NCBI RefSeq assembly: GCF_000527135.1
Contig: NZ_AZUP01000001.1
Coordinates: 558,001-622,000 of the forward strand
DNA: 64,000 bases
Reading direction: 5' to 3'
DNA from: Methyloversatilis discipulorum
GTDB taxonomy: Bacteria > Pseudomonadota > Gammaproteobacteria > Burkholderiales > Rhodocyclaceae
A model generated the notes under the pieces. That model worked only from the letters and a program-made list of their open reading frames with translations, had not been told where the DNA came from and did no database searches. Each line of letters starts with the position of its first letter. Position 1 is the first letter of the stretch. Positions 41,511 to 60,249 of the stretch are shown piece after piece. The position numbers and the translations under genes were made by a program.

Positions 41511-41540
41511 CCCGTACATCGAACTGTGTATGTACGGGGA
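41511..41540 (+). promoter_or_regulatory. Hairpin overlapping the ribosome site of the HDOD gene
   Basis: CCCGTACAT (41511-41519) and ATGTACGGG (41530-41538) are perfect inverted repeats with a 10-base loop. The right arm ends in the GGGGA that serves as ribosome site for the ATG at 41547. As RNA the stem would hide part of that site; as DNA it could be a regulator dyad. Confidence 0.45.
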
Positions 41541-41546
41541 CAACTC

Positions 41547-42404
41547 ATGGGTGAGCCGGTGAACGCATCGCTTGAAGCACTGCAACGACTTTCGGCCGAA
41601 CTGGAATCGGGGGACATCGTGTTCCCGACCAGCATCGACGTTTCGCTGCGCATCCGCCAGGCGCTCGAAAACCCGGACATCAACATCAACGAAGTCGCGC
41701 GCCTGGTCGGCGCCGAGCCGGTGCTGAGCGCGAAGGCGCTGCGTCTGGCCAATTCGGTCGCCTACAACCGCAGCGGCAACGAAATCACCGACGTGCGCAC
41801 CGCGGTCAACCGGGTCGGCACGGAGCCGATCCGCATGCTCACGATGTCGCTCATCGTCCGCCAGATGGTCGATGCGAGGGCCGACGAGCGGCTGCGCGTC
41901 ATGACGCACGACCTGTGGCAGCACACCATCCACGTGTCGGCGCTCAGTTTCGTGATCGCGCGCCGACTGTCCCGACTGAACGCCGATGCGGCCATGTTCG
42001 CCGGCGTCGTGCATGAGATCGGCCAGTTCTATCTTCTGGCCCGCGCTTCCGCCTTCCCGGCGCTGCTGCAGCGCGAGGAGGAACTGAGCGGCCTGATGTT
42101 CAGCTTCAGCCGCAGCGTCGGCCGGGCAGTGCTCGAATCGCTGAAGGTACCGACGCAGATCATCGATGCGGTCGACGATCCGTCGATCACCGGCCCGGTC
42201 GTGCCGCCGCGTTCACTTGCCGATGTGCTTTTCCTGGCCGAGAGCATGGCGGCCTTCCCCAACCCCTTCTGCTGCGCGACGGCTGAGCACGACGCGGCGA
42301 TTGCCGAAACCGTCACCGCCGACATCGACAACGAAACGCTCGACGCGGTGGTGGCCGAGTCGCAGGAGGAAATCGACTCCGTCATCGCAACGCTGCAGGT
42401 GTGA
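41547..42404 (+). CDS. HDOD-domain signalling protein
   Basis: A 285-residue cytoplasmic protein. The HDOD domain spans about 15-215 with the region LWQHTIHVSALSFVIARR and the later FAGVVHEIGQ, the remnant of an HD phosphohydrolase motif; the catalytic HD pair of true phosphohydrolases is not intact. HDOD proteins act as scaffolds in c-di-GMP, stress and motility signalling. The ATG at 41547 is chosen because GGGGA is nine bases upstream; a GTG at 41526 would add seven residues. The next gene downstream has a c-di-GMP riboswitch, which fits a signalling role. Confidence 0.85.
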   Translation: MGEPVNASLEALQRLSAELESGDIVFPTSIDVSLRIRQALENPDININEVARLVGAEPVLSAKALRLANSVAYNRSGNEITDVRTAVNRVGTEPIRMLTMSLIVRQMVDARADERLRVMTHDLWQHTIHVSALSFVIARRLSRLNADAAMFAGVVHEIGQFYLLARASAFPALLQREEELSGLMFSFSRSVGRAVLESLKVPTQIIDAVDDPSITGPVVPPRSLADVLFLAESMAAFPNPFCCATAEHDAAIAETVTADIDNETLDAVVAESQEEIDSVIATLQV

Positions 42405-42429
42405 TTGCATTGACCGCCGGCCGAGGAGC

Positions 42430-42456
42430 TCAAGTCCGCGTCCGGCGGACCGTTAA
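42430..42456 (+). promoter_or_regulatory. Weak sigma-28-like promoter candidate ahead of the riboswitch
   Basis: TCAAGTCC (42430-42437), an 11-base spacer, then ACCGTTAA (42449-42456): 11 of 16 positions match the FliA consensus TAAAGTTT-N11-GCCGATAA. Transcription would start just before the riboswitch. The match could be chance; a similar one with no motility link occurs upstream of lysC (3448-3474). Confidence 0.3.
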
Positions 42457-42477
42457 TTTCGGTGAAATCTGATAACA

Positions 42478-42566
42478 GCTGAACCAGGGCAAACCCGTCG
42501 AAAGACGGCGACGCAAAGTTTCCGGTCTACAGGGTGACGACACCCCATGACAGCGGGGCCGCCGCT
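42478..42566 (+). promoter_or_regulatory. Cyclic di-GMP-I (GEMM) riboswitch
   Basis: The sequence carries the GEMM-I signature in order: CAGGGCAAACC (42485-42495), a CCGTC-GAAA-GACGG hairpin with the GAAA tetraloop, GACGCAAAG (42510-42518), CCGGTCTA, a variable GGGTG/CACCC hairpin, then ATGACAGCGGGGCCGCC. The G in CAGGG, the A of the GCAAAG stretch and the C in AGCGGGG correspond to the ligand contacts known from the Vibrio Vc2 aptamer. It lies on the plus strand in the 5' region of the DUF1631 gene, whose ATG is about 90 bases further on. No other gene lies in between, so that gene is the expected target. Ligand and response direction are inferred from family; the downstream hairpins are listed separately. 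Confidence 0.93.
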
Positions 42567-42577
42567 ATACTGCGCCA

Positions 42578-42647
42578 CAGGTTGCGCTCCGACCTGAACC
42601 TTGCCCGGGTTTCGGCCTTTTCAGGTCGCTTTGAGCGACCGCAAAGG
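42578..42647 (+). promoter_or_regulatory. Mutually exclusive hairpins after the riboswitch (expression platform)
   Basis: Three stems share bases. CAGGT (42578-42582) can pair with ACCTG (42592-42596). GACCTGAA (42591-42598) can instead pair with TTCAGGTC (42620-42627). GGTCGCT (42624-42630) can pair with AGCGACC (42634-42640) with a 3-base loop, right before the AAAGG ribosome site (42643-42647). No T-tract follows, so translation control is more likely than termination. Roles of the alternatives are inferred. Confidence 0.5.
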
Positions 42648-42653
42648 TAAACA

Positions 42654-45002
42654 ATGAGCGCCGCTTCACCGATGCCTCCCAATCTGCCGCCCGAACGCGG
42701 ACGCGTAATCAACGACTGCCGCGATTTCACGCTGCGTCGTCTGCGCGAATCGCTGCATGGCATGCTGACCAAGATCGAGGAAGATCTGGTCGCGCGTGCA
42801 GAAGCCGAGCTCGATCGCGACCAGCGCAACCTCTACATGTTCACCTGCGGCAAGGCCCGCGAGAACTGGGCCGGCATCGAGCAGGCCTTCATCGACAATC
42901 TGTCGCGCTATTTCGACGCCCGCGTACGCGGTGAGCCGCTGAAGGCGTCGGCTGCCGCCACGCCGAAATCGCTCGACGAGCTGAGTCTGGTCGAAGAGGA
43001 CGTGCTGACCCAGGATCTGGCGGTCAGCGAGATCACCCGCAAGCTCAAGGAACATTGCGACGAGGACCTGTACGCGGTCGAACAGCGCCTCGGCAGTCTG
43101 CTTGGCAAGCAGGATCCGACCGATGCCGACAACCCGATCGGCACCGAAGCCATCGCCAACGCGCTGCGCGCGGCGTCCGAGGAAGTGGACCCGGGCGTGC
43201 AGATGCGTCTGGTGCTGCTGCAATCACTCGAACAGCAGATTTCCAACGAACTGGCCCGTCTCTATCAGGAACTGAATACCCGCCTGGTGCGCCAGAACGT
43301 GCTGCCCGGACTGCGCCGCGGCTTCCGCCGCGCACCGATGGCCGGCGCGCGGCCGCGCGGCGCCGGGGCGGCACCGGGCGGCGAGCAGCCGGCGATGCCG
43401 CGGCCGGACTTCGGTACCGTGTCATCGGTACAGGGCTTCGGCAGTGCATCGATGACGCAGGGATTCGGCACGGCGTCGATGCATCAGGGCTTCGGCGATC
43501 CGTCGCTGTCCGGCGTTGGCGGCTTCGATGGCGAGGGCGACATCTACGCGATGCTGGCCCAGCTGGTGCAGGGGCAGATGGCGGCACAGGGCATTCCGAT
43601 GCCGGCTGCCGGTGGCAGCGGGCCGGCCGCCGGACTCACGCCCGCTTCGCCCTTCGTATTCGAGGCGCTGAGCGCGCTGCAGGCCGAGGCCGATCACCTG
43701 CCCATGACGCCGGGGCTCGGCATGCCGGTGCCCGTGAACGTGCTCCGGGACTTCCGCAGTTCGGATCTGGGGCGGCATCTCGGGCAGTTCGACGCGATCA
43801 CGGTCGACATCGTCGCGATGCTGTTCGACCTCATCTTCGACGACGCCAATATCGCCGATCCGATCAAGGCGCTGGTTGGACGGCTGCAGATCCCGCTGGT
43901 CAAGGTGGCCATGCTGGACCGCAGTTTCTTCTCCAGCAAGGCACACCCGGCCCGGCATCTGCTCGATCTGATTTCGCAGGCGATGCTGCGCTGGGGGCGC
44001 GATGTCGGCCACGATGACCCGCTCTACGTGAAGCTGGCGGAGATCGTCGATCGAATCCTGCGCGACTTCGAACGCGACATGAGCTTGTTCGAGGCCTGCA
44101 ACACCGACCTCGAAAGCTTCATCAATGCGCTCGAATCCGAGGAGACGCAGCGCGCCGAAACGGCCGCCCGTCTGGCCGAAGAGCGCGAACAGGAACGTCT
44201 GCGCCGCGACGATGCGCGTCGCGCCGCCGACGACGCTGTCGATGACCGTCTGCGCACGCCGCTTCCTGCGGTGGTGCAGAACCTGCTCGACGGCGTATGG
44301 CGCCGCCTGCTGCGCACGCTGGCAGAGCGCGGGGCCGATACTGAGGTCGATTACCGGCAGGCCCTGGTGACGGCCGACGAACTGATCTGGAGCGTGCAGC
44401 CGAAGAGCGATCCGGAAGAGCGGCGCAAGCTCGTGCAGGCGCTGCCCGGCCTGCTGCGCCGACTGAATCAGGGTTTCGACACGGCCGAGGCGCATCCGGC
44501 CGACAAGTTGCTGCTCCTCAACGGCCTGTTCGATCTGCACGCGCAGTGGATCAAGCCGGGTGTGTCGCCCGGCGCGCCGCCGCCGGTGAAGCAGTGGGTG
44601 CCGGGCGAGGGCTCGGCCAACGACGCGGTGCCGGCGCCCGAGGTGGTGACCGAGCACGTCGAGCAGGATGGTCTCGAGTACGAGGACATTTCGCTCAATC
44701 TGCCGGCACATCTCGATATCGCCGACGAGGGCCGGGTGGCCGAGCTGAAGCGTGGCGACTGGGTCGAGTTCAAGCAGCCCGACGGCAGTTTTTCGCGCAT
44801 GCGCCTGAACTGGGTCAGTCCGCAGCGTGGTATCTACCTGTTCACCAATCCCGGTTCGCCGCGGGCCACCTCAATCGCGCCCGACGCGCTGGCGCTGCAG
44901 CTGGCGCGGGGCGAAGCGCGTATCGTCGATGCCGCGCCAATGTTCGAACGTGCGGTCAGCCAGGCGCTGGCACAGCCGCGCGACGAGCTTGCCGCCGGCT
45001 GA
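42654..45002 (+). CDS. DUF1631 protein under c-di-GMP riboswitch control
   Basis: A 782-residue cytoplasmic protein of the DUF1631 family, which is widespread in Beta- and Gammaproteobacteria and of unknown function. The helical N-terminal part (about 10-215) is followed by a low-complexity linker with Gly/Phe repeats (about 240-300), a long helical central domain (about 345-640, with a charged coiled-coil near 495-530), and a C-terminal beta-rich segment (about 690-770, starting LKRGDWVEF) that looks PilZ-like but lacks the RxxxR and D/NxSxxG c-di-GMP motifs. AAAGG lies six bases before the ATG. It is the only gene after the GEMM riboswitch, so its level should respond to c-di-GMP. The predicted domain limits are approximate. 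Confidence 0.88.
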   Translation: MSAASPMPPNLPPERGRVINDCRDFTLRRLRESLHGMLTKIEEDLVARAEAELDRDQRNLYMFTCGKARENWAGIEQAFIDNLSRYFDARVRGEPLKASAAATPKSLDELSLVEEDVLTQDLAVSEITRKLKEHCDEDLYAVEQRLGSLLGKQDPTDADNPIGTEAIANALRAASEEVDPGVQMRLVLLQSLEQQISNELARLYQELNTRLVRQNVLPGLRRGFRRAPMAGARPRGAGAAPGGEQPAMPRPDFGTVSSVQGFGSASMTQGFGTASMHQGFGDPSLSGVGGFDGEGDIYAMLAQLVQGQMAAQGIPMPAAGGSGPAAGLTPASPFVFEALSALQAEADHLPMTPGLGMPVPVNVLRDFRSSDLGRHLGQFDAITVDIVAMLFDLIFDDANIADPIKALVGRLQIPLVKVAMLDRSFFSSKAHPARHLLDLISQAMLRWGRDVGHDDPLYVKLAEIVDRILRDFERDMSLFEACNTDLESFINALESEETQRAETAARLAEEREQERLRRDDARRAADDAVDDRLRTPLPAVVQNLLDGVWRRLLRTLAERGADTEVDYRQALVTADELIWSVQPKSDPEERRKLVQALPGLLRRLNQGFDTAEAHPADKLLLLNGLFDLHAQWIKPGVSPGAPPPVKQWVPGEGSANDAVPAPEVVTEHVEQDGLEYEDISLNLPAHLDIADEGRVAELKRGDWVEFKQPDGSFSRMRLNWVSPQRGIYLFTNPGSPRATSIAPDALALQLARGEARIVDAAPMFERAVSQALAQPRDELAAG
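43431..43511 (+). repeat. 27-base tandem repeats in the DUF1631 gene
   Basis: About three in-frame units of 27 bases encode QGFGSASMT, QGFGTASMH and QGFGDPSLS, preceded by a related degenerate copy (FGTVSSV). The block gives a flexible Gly/Phe/Ser linker between the two helical domains. Repeat number could vary between strains. Confidence 0.8.
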
Positions 45003-52812: not shown

Positions 52813-52839
52813 TAAAGTTGCGCCGCCCGCTGCCGTAGC
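52813..52839 (+). promoter_or_regulatory. Sigma-28-like promoter candidate before the GGDEF-EAL gene
   Basis: TAAAGTTG (52813-52820), an 11-base spacer and GCCGTAGC (52832-52839) give a 7 of 8 match at -35 and 4 of 8 at -10 against the FliA consensus, with the right spacing. It is the best of three such matches ahead of c-di-GMP genes here but the -10 is weak. Confidence 0.35.
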
Positions 52840-52905
52840 TGGGGGATCTATACGAGAGCCGACTCGAACAGGCTCCGCTCGCATCGTCCTTTTGGGGAGA
52901 AGGAA

Positions 52906-52980
52906 ATGTTCATCCACGTGGACGCGCCGCTGGCGCGCGGCCCGGCATCGGCTCGTCGATGCGGGGCGCCGCTGCCATGA
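52906..52980 (+). CDS. Possible 24-residue leader peptide coupled to the GGDEF-EAL gene
   Basis: ATG at 52906 follows a very good ribosome site (GGGGAGAAGGA). The 25-codon frame begins MFIHVDAPLA and ends at TGA 52978-52980, overlapping the ATG of the next gene (52977) as ATGA. The downstream gene has only a weak ribosome site of its own, so its translation may depend on reading this frame. Two Arg codons and a Cys near the end have no clear attenuator meaning. It may be a leader, or an artefact of a true start elsewhere. Confidence 0.45.
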   Translation: MFIHVDAPLARGPASARRCGAPLP

Positions 52981-55130
52981 CGGGGCAATACCACCCGCTT
53001 CTGGTCGCGCTGTCACTGCTGGTGGCGGTGATGGCCGCCTGGTCAGCGCTCGATCTGTCGCAACGCATCCACAGCACCGACCGGCGCGCCGCGCGCATCT
53101 GGCTCTTTTCCGGTGCGCTGGTGCTCGGAACCGGCATCTGGTCGGTGAACTTCGTCGGCATGCTCGCCTACGCGCTGCCGATGCAGACCGGTTTCGACCT
53201 GATCATCACCGTGCAGTCCTGGCTGACGTCGGTCGGCATATCGCTGCTCGCACTGCTGGGCGCCAGTCGGCTGGCACCGGCGCAGCGGCTGCGCGCACCG
53301 CTGGCGCTGGTGGTCGGCGCCGGTGTCGTCATGGTGTTCCACCTTGCGTTGTCGGCGATGCGCATCGAACCCGCGGTCGGATACCGGCCGGGTCTGCTGG
53401 CGCTGGCCGTGCTGTTGGCCTGGGTACTGGCGGTGGCGACAGCCCGCGCGCTGCTGAGGATGCGTGCGCTCGATGGCCGCGCGCTCTATCTGTTCAAGGT
53501 GCTGGCGTCGATGGCGATGGGGCTCGTGTTGTGCGCAGTGCACTACATCTGCATGGCGGCCACCCGCTTCGAGGCGAACGCGGTCAGCCTGGCCAAGCAC
53601 GAGATCGATCCGACCTGGCTGGGGCTGACCATCGCCGTCGCGGCCATCGGCTTCACCTGGATAGGCAGCGTCGCCGCGCTGTTCGATGCCCGCATGGAAC
53701 ATCGCACGCGGCAGCTCGCGATGCGTCTGAAGGCGGCCAACAGCGAACTGATGCACGCGGCGCTGCACGACCCGCTGACCGATCTGCCGAACCGTGTCAA
53801 TTTCGACGCTGCGCTGGCCGAGGCGGCCGAGCGCGTGAGGGGGCGAGGGGCGCGACTGGCGGTGCTGTTCGTCGATCTCGATGGCTTCAAGCCGGTCAAC
53901 GACGTGCTCGGTCACCACGTCGGCGACGAGGTGCTCAAGTGTGTCGCACGCCGGCTGCGCAACGGTCTGCGTGAGGGCGACCTGGTGGCCCGCATCGGCG
54001 GTGACGAGTTCGTCATGCTGTCCGAGGGCGCGATCGATGCCGAAGGTGCCGGCCGGCTGGCGCAGCGGCTGGTCGATGCCGCCAGCCAGCCGATGCTGAT
54101 CGGCACCCATGAGATACAGGTGTCGGCGTCTGTCGGCGTCGCGCTGTTTCCCGACGACGGCGACGAGAATCGCGTGCTGGTCTGCGCCGACACCGCGATG
54201 TATGCCGCCAAGCACGCCGGCCGCAACACCTGGCGCCTGTACTGCGAGGACATGGATGGCGGTGGCGCCGACATCCTCGGCATGCAGCGCGCGATCCGCC
54301 GTGCGCTCGACAACGACGAGTTCGTGCTGCACTACCAGCCCAAGGTCAGTGCGGTCGATGGCGAGTTGCGTGGCGTCGAGGCGCTGATCCGCTGGCAGGA
54401 CCCGGAGCGCGGCATGGTGCCGCCGGTCGAATTCATCCCGGTGGCCGAGCGCTTCGGGCTGATCAACGCAATCGGCTTCTGGACGCTGCGCGAAGCCTGC
54501 GGCCAGATCCGCAGCTGGATGCACGCCGGCCGGCGCATACCGGTGGCGGTGAATCTGTCGCCGCAGCAGTTCCGGCAGCCGGACCTGGTCGAGCGCGTGC
54601 GCGCCTGCATCGACGAATTCGACATCGATCCTGGCCTGCTGGCGCTGGAAATCACCGAGTCGGTGGTGATGGAAAGTTCGACCAGCGTGCGTCGCGTGCT
54701 CGAAGAACTGAAGGCCATGGGCGTCACGCTGTCGATCGACGACTTCGGCACCGGCTATTCCTGCCTCGCCTATCTGTGCCGACTGCCGGCACGTCAGCTC
54801 AAGATAGACCGCACCTTCGTCATCGACATGGACCACGTCACCGAGGCGCGCCACGTGGTCGAGGCGGTCATCCGCCTTGCGCACTCGCTGCGCATGGAGG
54901 TGGTGGCCGAGGGCGTCGAGCGCTCGGAGCAGGTGATCGCGCTGCGCGCGCTCGGCTGCGACCTGATACAGGGCTATTACTTCTCACGGCCAGTGCCGGC
55001 GGGCGAGATCGAGGCGCTGCTGCAGAGCCGGCAGCTGGGCGAGCTGTCGAACCGGGCACGCAGCCTGGGCGAGGGCTTGCAGGCCGACGCGGCCAACACG
55101 CCGCAGCCGCTCGAACTGGCCGCCGGTTGA
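52977..55130 (+). CDS. Membrane GGDEF-EAL protein with degenerate MHYT sensor
   Basis: A 717-residue predicted diguanylate cyclase/c-di-GMP phosphodiesterase. The N-terminal region (about 1-230) has seven hydrophobic helices and resembles the MHYT sensor, but the first metal-binding motif reads VNF instead of MHY (IWSVNFVGML); only the later VHYICM keeps a His. The GGDEF site is intact at 341-345 with the RxxD inhibitory site Arg332-Asp335. The EAL motif at 468-470, ITESVVM, DDFGTGYS and KIDRTFV are all present, so both activities are possible. It follows a coupled mini-ORF at 52906-52980 and is followed by the convergent transporter gene. Confidence 0.93.
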   Translation: MTGQYHPLLVALSLLVAVMAAWSALDLSQRIHSTDRRAARIWLFSGALVLGTGIWSVNFVGMLAYALPMQTGFDLIITVQSWLTSVGISLLALLGASRLAPAQRLRAPLALVVGAGVVMVFHLALSAMRIEPAVGYRPGLLALAVLLAWVLAVATARALLRMRALDGRALYLFKVLASMAMGLVLCAVHYICMAATRFEANAVSLAKHEIDPTWLGLTIAVAAIGFTWIGSVAALFDARMEHRTRQLAMRLKAANSELMHAALHDPLTDLPNRVNFDAALAEAAERVRGRGARLAVLFVDLDGFKPVNDVLGHHVGDEVLKCVARRLRNGLREGDLVARIGGDEFVMLSEGAIDAEGAGRLAQRLVDAASQPMLIGTHEIQVSASVGVALFPDDGDENRVLVCADTAMYAAKHAGRNTWRLYCEDMDGGGADILGMQRAIRRALDNDEFVLHYQPKVSAVDGELRGVEALIRWQDPERGMVPPVEFIPVAERFGLINAIGFWTLREACGQIRSWMHAGRRIPVAVNLSPQQFRQPDLVERVRACIDEFDIDPGLLALEITESVVMESSTSVRRVLEELKAMGVTLSIDDFGTGYSCLAYLCRLPARQLKIDRTFVIDMDHVTEARHVVEAVIRLAHSLRMEVVAEGVERSEQVIALRALGCDLIQGYYFSRPVPAGEIEALLQSRQLGELSNRARSLGEGLQADAANTPQPLELAAG

Positions 55131-56030: not shown

Positions 56031-57534
56031 CGGCGATCAGTGCGTTGAAGGCGGCGCGGGCCGATTCGATCACCTCGCCGGCGGTCAGGCCGTTCGGACC
56101 CTTGCCAAGTGCGACCAGACGGTCGCCGGCCAGTCCGTGCAGGTGCACGCCGCCGATCAGCGCGAGGTCGGCCGGCCAGCCCTGGGCCAGCAGGCCGGCG
56201 ATCAGGCCGGTCAGTACGTCGCCCATGCCGGCCGACGCCATGCCCGGATTGCCCGTTGTGTTGATGAACCAGCGTCCGTCCGGCAGCGCCAGCACGCTGC
56301 CACAGCCCTTCAGCACGACCGAGGCGCGGAAGCGGCGCGCCATCTCGCGTGCCGCAGCGATGCGGTCGTGCTGCACCCTGGCGGTCGTGCTGCCGAGCAG
56401 ACGGGCGGCTTCCATCGGGTGCGGCGTCAGCAGTGTTGCGGCGCCCCGGTCGATCAGCGCCTTTTCGAGATCCGCGTGCTGCGACAGCAGGTTCAGCGCG
56501 TCGGCGTCGAGCACCAGCGTGGCCGGCGACTGCACCGCGTCGCGCATCAGGTCGAGTGCGGCCGGGCTCTGGCCGAGGCCGGGGCCGATCGCCACGCAGG
56601 TGGCGAGGTCGCCGGTCAGTACTTCCGCCGGTGTGCGGATCATCAGTTCCGGCTGTTCCGGGTCGAGCGGCAGTGCGGCGTGGTCGAGCATGCCGACATA
56701 GACGCGACCGGCGCCCACCTTCAGCGCGGCACGCCCGGCCAGCAGCGCGGCGCCGGCCATGCCGCGTGCGCCGCCAACCAGTACCGCGTTGCCGTGCGTG
56801 CCCTTGTGGCTGTTGCGCGCGCGTGGTCGCAGCAGGTGATCGAACAGGCCGCGGCCGACCTGCCAGCCCGAGGGCTGTACGACGGCAGCGCAGTCGAGCC
56901 CGAGGTCGTGCACCGACAGCTCGCCGCAGTGGTCGGGGCCGTCCAGCGTCAGCAGACCGGGCTTGAGCGCAATCATCGTGGCGGTGTGCGAGGCGCGGAC
57001 CGCGCGGCCGAGCACGGCGCCAGTGTCGGCATTCAGGCCGCTGGGCACGTCGATGGCGAGCACCGGGCAGTCCATGTCGTTGACCGCGTCTATCCAGGCT
57101 GCGTGTTCGCCCTCGATCGGGCGCGTCAGGCCGATACCGTACAGCGCATCGACGACGATGGAGAAGTCGCCGCGCGGCAGACGCGGCACGGTGACGCCGC
57201 CGGTGGCGCGCCACGACGCCCAGGCCGACACCGCGTCGCTCGCCTGCGGGTGCTCGTCGCCCTGGTAGGCGACGACCACGTCGAAGCCAGTCTGCCGCAG
57301 CTGGCGCGCCAGCACGAAGCCGTCGCCGCCGTTGTTGCCGGGACCGCACATGACCAGCACGCGACCGTGGCGCCCGCCGAGGATCTGCATCACCTTGGCC
57401 GCACCGGTGGCACCGGCGCGCTCCATCAGGCGCGGCGAACTGGCGGGCGCGTAGTGGCGCTCGATACGTCGCAGCGCGTCGGCGTTGTACAGCGCCGTCA
57501 GCGATGAGGTGTTGAGGGTTTTCGGGGTGGGCAT
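55993..57534 (-). CDS. nnr: Bifunctional NAD(P)H-hydrate epimerase / ADP-dependent dehydratase
   Basis: A 513-residue repair enzyme for hydrated NAD(P)H. The N-terminal epimerase domain (about 15-215) carries GPGNNGGDGF. The C-terminal ADP-dependent dehydratase (about 230-505, ribokinase-like) has the terminal GNPGMASAGMGD with the catalytic Asp, and the earlier VLDADALNLL. Length is normal for the fused form. A TAGAAT -10 lies on the minus strand just upstream (near 57595). Confidence 0.95.
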   Translation of the reverse strand: MPTPKTLNTSSLTALYNADALRRIERHYAPASSPRLMERAGATGAAKVMQILGGRHGRVLVMCGPGNNGGDGFVLARQLRQTGFDVVVAYQGDEHPQASDAVSAWASWRATGGVTVPRLPRGDFSIVVDALYGIGLTRPIEGEHAAWIDAVNDMDCPVLAIDVPSGLNADTGAVLGRAVRASHTATMIALKPGLLTLDGPDHCGELSVHDLGLDCAAVVQPSGWQVGRGLFDHLLRPRARNSHKGTHGNAVLVGGARGMAGAALLAGRAALKVGAGRVYVGMLDHAALPLDPEQPELMIRTPAEVLTGDLATCVAIGPGLGQSPAALDLMRDAVQSPATLVLDADALNLLSQHADLEKALIDRGAATLLTPHPMEAARLLGSTTARVQHDRIAAAREMARRFRASVVLKGCGSVLALPDGRWFINTTGNPGMASAGMGDVLTGLIAGLLAQGWPADLALIGGVHLHGLAGDRLVALGKGPNGLTAGEVIESARAAFNALIAGADLQEVGHIHL

Positions 57535-57834
57535 GCTCGGACCGGACTGTCGCCGGACCGACGGATCCGGCGCGCACAGGCGCGCATTCTATGCCCGGCG
57601 GCGCCATCGTGCCGAGGAATGCGGCATTTCACGCCAGCGGCTCGCCGTGCGCCCGGCGCGATCCGGCACAGTCGCCGCCAAGGTCGATCTGCTGCAGTGC
57701 GGCGACGATCGGGGCCGCCGCGCGTTCAAGTCGGCGCGCCGCCGCGCCGATATGAGCGAAGCAACGCGTCGGATCGATGTTCAAGCAGGGGTGGCCGCAG
57801 CGGGCCATATCCCGGAAAGAAGAGTCTGCAGATC
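57535..57834. promoter_or_regulatory. Divergent region between nnr and the second GGDEF-EAL gene
   Basis: These 300 bases contain no supported gene. The left end holds the nnr promoter (minus-strand TAGAAT near 57595). At 57726-57753 TCAAGTCG, 12 bases, then GCCGATAT is a partial sigma-28-type match with a good -10 (7 of 8) but a weak -35. No riboswitch or strong ribosome site is visible before the ATG at 57835. Confidence 0.4.
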
Positions 57835-60249
57835 ATGCGCACAACCGGAATCGCCTCGGCGAGCACCGCGAGCATCTCGTCGCGGCTGAACCGCTGGCTG
57901 GACGACGTCATCGGCACCGCCAATGCCGATGCGCATCTGGCCGCCCGCATCCGCGCGCAGCAACTGCGCTCGGTGCTCCGGTTCGCGCCGCTCACGCTGA
58001 CCGCCAATCTGTTCAATGCGCTGCTCATCGTGGTCGTGTTCTGGGACAGCGAACCGCCGTGGGTGCTGCTGCTGTGGCTCGCTGCTCTGACCGTCGCGAT
58101 GCGCTCGACGCTGCGCGCCTGGCGCCGCGACCAGGCCTCGCCGCCGGTGCGGGCGTCCGAACGCGCCATACGCCGCGCCGTGCTGCACGCCGGCGTGCTG
58201 GCACTGCTGTGGTCGGTGCCGTCGCTGCTGTTCTTCACCCGCGCCGAGGCCGACAGCGCGCTGCTGGTGACGCTGATTTCCGGCGGCATGATGTGCGCCG
58301 GCAGCTTCGTACTCGCCAACGTTCCCCGCGCAGCCGTGCTCTATGTGCTGCTGCTGTGCGCCTCCAGTTCGCTCGCCTTCGTCATCGACCACCCGGTACG
58401 CAACCTCGATCTCGTGGTGCTGATGAATTTCTATGCCGCGCTGGCGCTTGCCTGCGCCATCGCCAGCGCCCGCACCTTCGGCGCTCGACTGCTGGCCGAA
58501 GCCGAGGCGGAGCGGCAGAAGCAGCTGGTCGGCCTGCTGCTGCACGACTTCGAGGCGCATTCGAGCGACTGGTTGTGGGACACCGACCGCAACGGCTTCC
58601 TGCAGCACGTGTCGGCGCGGTTGGCCGAAACCTTCGGTCGCCCGCTCGACGAATTGCGCGCGCAGCCCTTCATCGAGCTGTTCGCCCAGGGTGGCCGCGA
58701 CATGAACGACACCGAGCGCGATGCGCTGAGCGCGCTGGCCGCGCATCTGATGCAGCCGGTGCCTTTCCGCGACGTGCAGGTCGCGCTGGTGGTCGGGGGC
58801 GAGCGACGCTGGTGGGCGCTCACCGCCAAACCGCTGTTCGACGAGGGCGGACATCACGCCGGCTGGCGTGGCGTGTGCTCCGACATCACCGACAGCCGTC
58901 GCGCCGCGCTCGAAATGTCGACGCTGGCCAATTTCGATTCGCTGACCGGGCTGGCCAACCGGCACCACTTCCGCAACCAGCTGGCGGCCATTCGTCCGGC
59001 CGGTTCGGAGGAGGCGCGGCCGTGCGCGCTGTACTTCTTCGATCTGGACGATTTCAAGAACGTGAACGATTCGCTCGGCCATGCCGCCGGCGACCGTGTG
59101 CTGCAACTGGTGTCGCAGCGCCTGCAGGAGCGCATCCGCGCCGGCGACGTGCTGTCGCGACTGGGCGGCGACGAATTCGCGCTGATCTGCTGGGGCTGCC
59201 GCACACCGGAGTGCGCAGCGGAACTGGCGCAGTGCCTGCTCGATACCTTCTCCTCGCCGGTCGTGATCGACGGCGTCAGCGTGCAGATCGGCAGCAGCAT
59301 CGGCATCGCGCTGGCGCCGCAGCACGGCGGCGATCCCGATGCCTTGCTGAAGAATGCCGACATGGCGCTGTACGCGGCCAAGGCCGCCGGACGCAACACC
59401 TGGCGCTTCTTCGAACAGGACATGGACGAGCGCGCACGCCGTCGCCTGAGCATGCACAGCGACCTGCTCGGCGCGCTGGAACGTGACGAATTCGAACTGC
59501 ACTACCAGCCGCAGATCCACATGCGCAGTGGTCGCGTCGCCGGATTCGAGGCGCTGATCCGCTGGCGCCATCCGCAGCGCGGTCTGGTGTCGCCGGGCGA
59601 ATTCATTCCGCTTGCGGAAGAAACCGGCCTCATCGTGCCGATCGGCCGCTGGGCGCTGGAGCAGGCCTGTCAGGCGGCCGTGCGCTGGCCGGACGACATG
59701 CATGTGGCGGTGAACGTGTCCGCCGTCCAGTTCGCGCGCGGCGCGGTGGTCGAGGTGGTGCAGGATGCGCTGACGCAGAGCGGCCTGGCACCGGACCGGC
59801 TGGAGATCGAGGTGACCGAGTCGCTGCTGATCCACGACAGCGCAGCGGCACGCGACACGCTGAGTGCGCTGCGTGTGCTGGGCATCGGCATCGCGCTCGA
59901 CGACTTCGGCACCGGCTATTCGTCGCTGGCCTATCTGCGCAGCTTCCCGATGACCAAGCTGAAGATAGACCGCTCCTTCGTCACCAGCCTGAACAGCGAG
60001 GAGGGTGGCGGCGCCATTGTGCGTGCCATCATCAACCTGGCCGACGCCTTGCGCCTGGATACCACCGCCGAGGGCGTCGAAACCGCGGCCGAGTGGGCTG
60101 CGCTGGCCGGCAAGGACTGCACCTATGCGCAGGGCTACCTGATGTCGCGCCCGCTGCCGGAAGCGCAGATCGCCGCTTTCATCGACGGCTGGCGCGGGCT
60201 GGACGCCATACAGGGCGAGCCGGACAGACCGCTGCGCGCAGTCGGCTGA
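57835..60249 (+). CDS. Membrane PAS-GGDEF-EAL protein
   Basis: An 804-residue predicted c-di-GMP enzyme. About six hydrophobic helices form the N-terminal part (about 45-215). A PAS-like sensor follows (about 235-355, LHDFEAHSSDWLWD to DITDSRRAA). Then come GGDEF at 444-448 with RxxD Arg435-Asp438, and EAL at 572-574 with VTESLLI, DDFGTGYS and KIDRSFV intact. Both cyclase and phosphodiesterase activity are thus possible. The start at 57835 is the first ATG before the helices; its ribosome site is weak. It has no clear operon partner. Confidence 0.93.
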   Translation: MRTTGIASASTASISSRLNRWLDDVIGTANADAHLAARIRAQQLRSVLRFAPLTLTANLFNALLIVVVFWDSEPPWVLLLWLAALTVAMRSTLRAWRRDQASPPVRASERAIRRAVLHAGVLALLWSVPSLLFFTRAEADSALLVTLISGGMMCAGSFVLANVPRAAVLYVLLLCASSSLAFVIDHPVRNLDLVVLMNFYAALALACAIASARTFGARLLAEAEAERQKQLVGLLLHDFEAHSSDWLWDTDRNGFLQHVSARLAETFGRPLDELRAQPFIELFAQGGRDMNDTERDALSALAAHLMQPVPFRDVQVALVVGGERRWWALTAKPLFDEGGHHAGWRGVCSDITDSRRAALEMSTLANFDSLTGLANRHHFRNQLAAIRPAGSEEARPCALYFFDLDDFKNVNDSLGHAAGDRVLQLVSQRLQERIRAGDVLSRLGGDEFALICWGCRTPECAAELAQCLLDTFSSPVVIDGVSVQIGSSIGIALAPQHGGDPDALLKNADMALYAAKAAGRNTWRFFEQDMDERARRRLSMHSDLLGALERDEFELHYQPQIHMRSGRVAGFEALIRWRHPQRGLVSPGEFIPLAEETGLIVPIGRWALEQACQAAVRWPDDMHVAVNVSAVQFARGAVVEVVQDALTQSGLAPDRLEIEVTESLLIHDSAAARDTLSALRVLGIGIALDDFGTGYSSLAYLRSFPMTKLKIDRSFVTSLNSEEGGGAIVRAIINLADALRLDTTAEGVETAAEWAALAGKDCTYAQGYLMSRPLPEAQIAAFIDGWRGLDAIQGEPDRPLRAVG

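Follow-up and report, generated by a model that had tools for sequence, protein, structure and literature searches.

The window analysed here, a stretch of 64,000 nucleotides of Methyloversatilis discipulorum DNA, carries on its forward strand a DUF1631 gene (42654..45002) whose product is 782 amino acids long and, before it, a c-di-GMP-I (GEMM-I) riboswitch aptamer (42478..42566). The aptamer ends 87 nt before the DUF1631 ATG (42654) and lies on the same strand, forming part of the 5' leader of the gene; the segment from 42567 to 42653 (+) is the expression platform. The upstream neighbour, which lies outside the switch, is an HDOD-domain gene on the same strand (41526..42404; Pfam HDOD, 109 bits), and two GGDEF-EAL genes are found further downstream (open frames 52839-55130 and 57508-60249). 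An initial annotation had cited these two genes as nearby and as strengthening a signalling theme. The genes are real, but they lie about 8-15 kb past the end of the DUF1631 gene, so 'nearby' is generous and the support they lend is weak.

The same annotation had read a GEMM-I aptamer at this place, with its elements in order on the coding strand before a DUF1631 target. A cmscan search of the whole window with the Rfam covariance models upholds identity, element order, strand and target: 42478-42566 (+) matches c-di-GMP-I (RF01051) end to end, over model positions 1-87 of 87, scoring 64.0 bits where the curated gathering threshold is 35 (E 3.3e-10 for the search of the full window), and it is the sole c-di-GMP-I match in the window. 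Two consensus pairs are non-standard, and the GAAA tetraloop is present. By alignment, the contact bases G42488, A42515 and C42562 correspond to G20, A47 and C92 of the Vc2 aptamer, and their equivalents are invariant among 30 aligned aptamers drawn from the 142 matches of the genome survey described below. The 3',3'-cGAMP-selective variant of GEMM-I is marked by an A in place of Vc2 G20; the window aptamer has G, not A, at 42488, which rules against that variant. The roles of the three bases in Vc2 are taken from the accessible part of PMC4744006, while the mapping onto the window is our own; the G20 position is described as a factor in selectivity and not as a hard filter in the accessible part of PMC9262584. 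As a member of this family, the window aptamer would be expected to bind c-di-GMP. At 42404-42455 a Pyrobac-1 match scored 22 bits, short of its cut-off of 40, and was dismissed as a local hairpin.

The DUF1631 protein matches PF07793 with 525 bits against a cut-off of 33.7, residues 14-772 of 782 covering model positions 5-738 of 741. It is 98% identical to its counterpart in a Methyloversatilis discipulorum MAG and 79-85% identical to those of M. thermotolerans and M. universalis. The gene is single in its own genome (4,306,529 bases, one contig), which holds two c-di-GMP-I matches. A Pfam search of the protein at E <=10 returned, beyond DUF1631 itself, just sub-threshold matches to TerB_N (E 0.034, or 0.011 for a piece), PNPase and OGG, and no PilZ domain. 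A profile search of solved structures gave just two matches, at E 0.27 and 1.4, which were taken as chance. In the literature searched, parts of which were accessible, no function was found for DUF1631, the mentions examined being single entries in gene lists, and PF07793 was not found mentioned as an identifier.

The pairing of the aptamer with DUF1631 is no local accident. Across 150 genomes, the window's own included, 74 have a c-di-GMP-I match at E <=0.001, giving 142 matches; the search used strict filters, by which weak matches are lost. Of these matches 139 exceed the Rfam cut-off, and none of the three below it is linked to DUF1631. DUF1631 is present in 80 of the 150 genomes, and in 33 of the 80 an aptamer lies 124-299 nt before the DUF1631 match on the same strand (linkage was counted over 108 DUF1631 rows, from which later pieces of split matches were left out by hand). 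In Methyloversatilis, an environmental methylotroph, all 13 genomes of the survey are linked, and 33 of the 142 c-di-GMP-I matches precede DUF1631.

The initial annotation had pointed to a survey of DUF1631 leaders for GEMM elements, and a search of named loci with a 30-aptamer model likewise showed the link to be conserved. Among the best 80 DUF1631 loci of at least 568 confirmed, 51 have an aptamer on the strand of the gene, 81-541 nt ahead of the DUF1631 match. Three of the 29 aptamer-free loci have less than 120 nt of upstream contig, so 51 of 77 testable loci among these best 80 are linked and 26 are not. When 24 of the 51 linked loci were retested with Rfam, all 24 passed, 23 as c-di-GMP-I and one as c-di-GMP-I-GGC; the last (L115 4641-4738, in the DUF1631 leader of Candidatus Desulfobacillus denitrificans) scores with RF03167 and not with c-di-GMP-I. 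The aptamer was absent from 17 loci (14 distinct genes) chosen from the genome survey as unlinked DUF1631.

Linked families include Sterolibacteriaceae, Rhodocyclaceae, Zoogloeaceae, Sulfuricellaceae, Hydrogenophilaceae and Thiobacillaceae, and the linked proteins diverge down to about 30% identity with the window protein. On a FastTree tree of 79 proteins (52 linked rows with the window included, L158 and L167 left out, and L112 unlabelled at a contig end), the linked label changes 13 times against a shuffled mean of 21.9, and none of 500 shuffles was as low. A clade of nine rows labelled Gammaproteobacteria has no aptamer; two rows so labelled elsewhere on the tree, L129 and L142, have one. 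At one linked locus (G064:C1:3592457-3595869, L068) two adjoining DUF1631 matches lie behind a single aptamer. In a Thiobacillaceae MAG a Guanidine-I riboswitch (L150 742-851, -) was seen close to the DUF1631 gene.

The neighbours of DUF1631 are far less constant, as judged by tblastn of the window's neighbours against the best 80 of at least 568 loci at E 1e-8. A threonine synthase neighbour is confined to the seven Methyloversatilis loci among the 80. An HDOD homologue is directly upstream on the same strand in 11 of the 80, namely those seven Methyloversatilis loci and L110, L120, L121 and L122; in eight unlinked loci of this set a homologue is found elsewhere, and 40 of the 51 aptamer-linked loci have none in the sequence stretch examined. 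The neighbours therefore change between loci, and the aptamer tracks DUF1631 and not synteny. The adjacent HDOD gene had also been offered in the initial annotation as support for a signalling theme, and that support is weak, real though the gene is.

These counts bear on the proposal that the aptamer belongs to the signalling of an HDOD/c-di-GMP operon in which DUF1631 is a passenger. The proposal draws on the HDOD gene lying directly upstream within the genus, on two aptamers elsewhere that precede HDOD-response-regulator genes and on a second HDOD gene of the genome that shares the promoter pattern discussed below. It is nevertheless disfavoured, and extremely unlikely in our estimation, given the 11 loci of 80 and the 40 linked loci noted above and a terminator-like hairpin between the two genes. 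This hairpin, followed by CGTTAATTTC (42434..42450, +), is weak, one being found against a shuffle mean of 0.6, and it may end the HDOD transcript. It lies after the HDOD gene and shares bases with the sigma-28-like promoter from which the next transcript would start.

Other c-di-GMP-I aptamers precede genes of several kinds. The second aptamer of the genome (G000:C1:2910993-2911080; L083 2990-3085) lies before an open frame (L083 3157-5160) for a secreted-looking protein of 667 amino acids with the metalloprotease motif HELGHNMGLMHD, and the site upstream of it scores 12 of 16 for sigma-28. The targets of ten further aptamers, when scanned, are HDOD-response-regulator proteins (L019, L026), a response-regulator-PilZ protein (L028), subtilases (L005, L012, L020), a metallopeptidase (L008) and three proteins without a match. 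In one genome two c-di-GMP-I aptamers (G015:C18:88577-88664, -, and 89017-89104, +) are separated by about 350 nt, one on each strand, and are divergently oriented.

The best promoter candidate in the window leader lies upstream of the aptamer and not downstream of 42566, and a promoter scan of that leader found no sigma-70 promoter. The E. coli consensus for sigma-28 is TAAAGTTT-N11-GCCGATAA. The sigma-28 (FliA) promoter candidate (42430..42456, +) consists of a -35 box, TCAAGTCC (42430-42437), an 11-nt spacer and a -10 box, ACCGTTAA (42449-42456); it agrees with the E. coli consensus, scored as TAAAGTTT-N11-GCCG(A/T)TAA, at 12 of 16 positions and lies beyond three mismatches of it. In an alignment of the 13 leaders of the genus (the first ATG, at 87 nt, being used for L033, L052 and L053), the boxes T(A/C)AAGT and CGTTA stand at sigma-28 spacing just upstream of the aptamer. 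With spacers of 10-12 nt, all 13 score 12-15 of 16 and ten reach 13; the bases of the site vary among these leaders, yet the site is kept in all of them.

Outside the genus, sites scoring at least 13 are found in 11 of 43 named leaders and seven of 20 survey leaders, two sets that overlap. Two of these leaders (L127, L148) match at all 16 positions with a 12-nt spacer, and L136 and L135 also have near-perfect sites; the other 32 of the 43 named leaders score under 13. Among the controls the same threshold was reached by three of 38 unlinked aptamers, by no more than 0.3% of shuffles and by none of the 26 unlinked DUF1631 genes, while at the looser threshold of 12 eight of the 38 unlinked aptamers also have sigma-28-like sites. 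These counts cover 50 of the 51 linked named leaders (L113 was too short) and 38 of 109 unlinked aptamers. Fisher tests of the leaders outside the genus against unlinked aptamers gave p values of 0.04 and 0.02, relatedness being ignored. Within the 400 nt before the DUF1631 match, a score of at least 13 is reached in 14 of 51 linked loci against one of 26 unlinked loci.

The company that this promoter pattern keeps is flagellar in part. The pattern TMAAGTYY-N12-CCGTTA occurs once in the window and in none of 100 shuffles. In the 4.3-Mb genome it occurs at four places, before flagellin, motA, an HDOD gene and the DUF1631 leader, and its reversed control at none; the HDOD gene that shares the pattern with flagellin and motA has it at G000:C1:4004759-4004784. 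The pattern was set after the genus leaders had been viewed, so the window site is recovered by construction, whereas flagellin and motA are not, and just the companion genes count as evidence. Across the 13 genus genomes there are 47 places against four for the reversed pattern; six of the 47 are DUF1631 leaders, in six of the 13 genomes, and in 12 of 13 genomes the pattern stands 92-96 nt before a flagellin match, among the matches listed.

When the E. coli consensus was applied to the window's own genome with up to three mismatches, 29 places were found against nine for the control, the window site being missed. Of the 24 genes behind these loose sites, 20 were scanned with Pfam. Seven of these 20 serve flagella or chemotaxis (flagellin, motA, two MCPs, a YcgR-like PilZ gene, fliN and fliE), two carry GGDEF, one carries HDOD and ten look unrelated to motility or c-di-GMP signalling. 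Among the matches listed, 75 of the 80 genomes with DUF1631 contain Flagellin_N, as do 52 of the 70 genomes that lack DUF1631 (p 0.001); outside the genus the counts are 62 of 67 and 52 of 70 (p 0.006), both p values being uncorrected for relatedness. On the same matches 31 of the 33 linked genomes have flagellin. The two without it, G100 and G111, have leaders in which no sigma-28 site reaches 12.

The promoter results have to be weighed against a plainer account, in which an ordinary c-di-GMP-I riboswitch acts on DUF1631 outside the flagellar regulon, the sigma-28-like site arose by chance or plays a small part, and DUF1631 has a different c-di-GMP output, for instance pili, surface proteins or matrix. 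Such an account would explain why most leaders outside the genus are missing a strong sigma-28 site, how G100 and G111 can be linked without flagellin (among the matches listed), why eight of 38 unlinked aptamers also score at least 12, and the presence of secreted proteases among the other sampled aptamer targets. It fits poorly with the retention of the site in 13 of 13 genus leaders despite their varying bases, with the near-perfect sites in L127, L136, L148 and L135, and with flagellin and motA among the genome-wide companions of the pattern. We regard this account as a serious though unlikely alternative.

Control of DUF1631 is probably translational and not terminator-based, as judged from the leader sequences. 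A terminator scan found no intrinsic terminator in the window leader, and a strict scan for a terminator hairpin followed by a T run found none in the 51 named linked leaders (0.2% of shuffles). A hairpin (42615..42648, +) that can pair GCCUUU with AAAGGU would cover the Shine-Dalgarno sequence AAAGG (42643-42647), and the genus leaders can form this pairing. Across 11 distinct genus leaders the outer helix is paired in 89% of cells and the whole hairpin in 83%, against 24-48% when slid; covariation in the hairpin does not go beyond shuffles, 161 of 500 being as high. In the genus leaders RNAalifold also pairs the 3' strand of the aptamer (42553-42559) with the first DUF1631 codons (42658-42664), which is a possible alternative fold.

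No switch was computed in the window leader, the exposure of the Shine-Dalgarno sequence being 0.21 when free and 0.14 with the aptamer forced. This, and the dissimilarity by eye of the post-aptamer leaders outside the genus, would be expected if the aptamer were a c-di-GMP sponge or a stable RNA, as proposed for Bdellovibrio merRNA, and not a cis switch. A sponge would have no need of the same-strand pairing with DUF1631, which is found at 81-541 nt across many families, and a role of this kind appears very unlikely.

The most likely reading of the sigma-28-like site and its flagellar companions is that DUF1631 belongs to the late-flagellar genes and is tuned by c-di-GMP, with an output in motility or surface transition; we hold this reading with moderate confidence. 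From sequence, the placement of DUF1631 among late flagellar genes has good support in the genus and extends to part of the other lineages, and the sigma-28-like promoter lends weight to the earlier idea that the family may be a c-di-GMP output. In the mechanism proposed, sigma-28 (FliA) RNA polymerase would start the transcript just upstream of the aptamer, at a predicted 42462-42465 derived from the spacing that is usual between a -10 box and the start. A start of this kind would time the DUF1631 transcript to flagellar completion, the FliA-driven message being made while flagella are being completed. The aptamer, as the first structured element of this RNA, would then bind c-di-GMP, and the ligand-bound form would alter ribosome initiation on the message by way of the leader hairpin that can cover the Shine-Dalgarno sequence. 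Given both promoter timing and c-di-GMP control, the DUF1631 protein would serve as an output of c-di-GMP in motility or the surface transition.

A wider proposition, on which we are evenly divided, is that the DUF1631 proteins of Betaproteobacteria form a late-flagellar class of c-di-GMP output that has gone unrecognised, expressed from sigma-28 promoters only and dosed by the riboswitch. Part of that proposition is that the pairing may be old, having been kept while DUF1631 proteins fell to about 30% identity and their neighbours changed. If it is true, the cell would combine 'flagellum finished' AND 'c-di-GMP level' on one RNA. This would be a clean case of serial sensing, the motile state being read through the choice of promoter and the second messenger through the riboswitch. 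The recurrent pairing and the apparent flagellar control of the gene together point to a still uncharacterised protein that takes part in the decision to swim or settle. A conserved c-di-GMP switch together with a flagellar promoter would give the DUF1631 family its first testable role and would indicate which pathway, which condition and which partners to examine.

Among known systems, Cd1 of Clostridioides difficile, like the window RNA a c-di-GMP-I switch, sits upstream of flagellar genes. Cd1 acts on transcription, according to the accessible part of PMC9262584; no terminator was found in the window leader, nor in the 51 named leaders under the strict scan. In Vibrio cholerae, Vc1 (gbpA) is contained in the initial 111 nt of its 5' UTR (PMC4744006), and PMC9262584 presents Vc2 as an OFF switch acting on translation, both sources being accessible in part. 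With Vc1 and Vc2 the window RNA has the aptamer family and the contact bases in common, and it differs from them in its target family, DUF1631, and in its flagellar promoter candidate. The gene for the flagellar brake YcgR is a member of the flagellar regulon. According to published abstracts YcgR acts as a c-di-GMP output, as is proposed here for DUF1631. YcgR binds c-di-GMP as a protein, whereas DUF1631, without a PilZ match, would be dosed at the level of its RNA; a PilZNR-PilZ gene of the window's own genome also lies behind a loose sigma-28-like site, with three mismatches.

The merRNA of Bdellovibrio bacteriovorus is, in the accessible part of PMC3627812, a c-di-GMP riboswitch RNA in a motile-phase programme dominated by FliA, whose motif there is TTAAG-N16-CCGATA. 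In that part of the source the table row for merRNA carries no FliA 'yes', and merRNA precedes no conserved open frame, whereas the window RNA precedes one gene family. The literature searched, which was accessible in part, yielded no report of a link between the aptamer and DUF1631. A literature search for GEMM or c-di-GMP riboswitches in Betaproteobacteria found none, and the papers that pair Methyloversatilis with riboswitches concern other subjects only, as far as their abstracts go. As an aptamer the window RNA adds a member to a known class; what is new is its conserved DUF1631 target, together with the flagellar promoter candidate.
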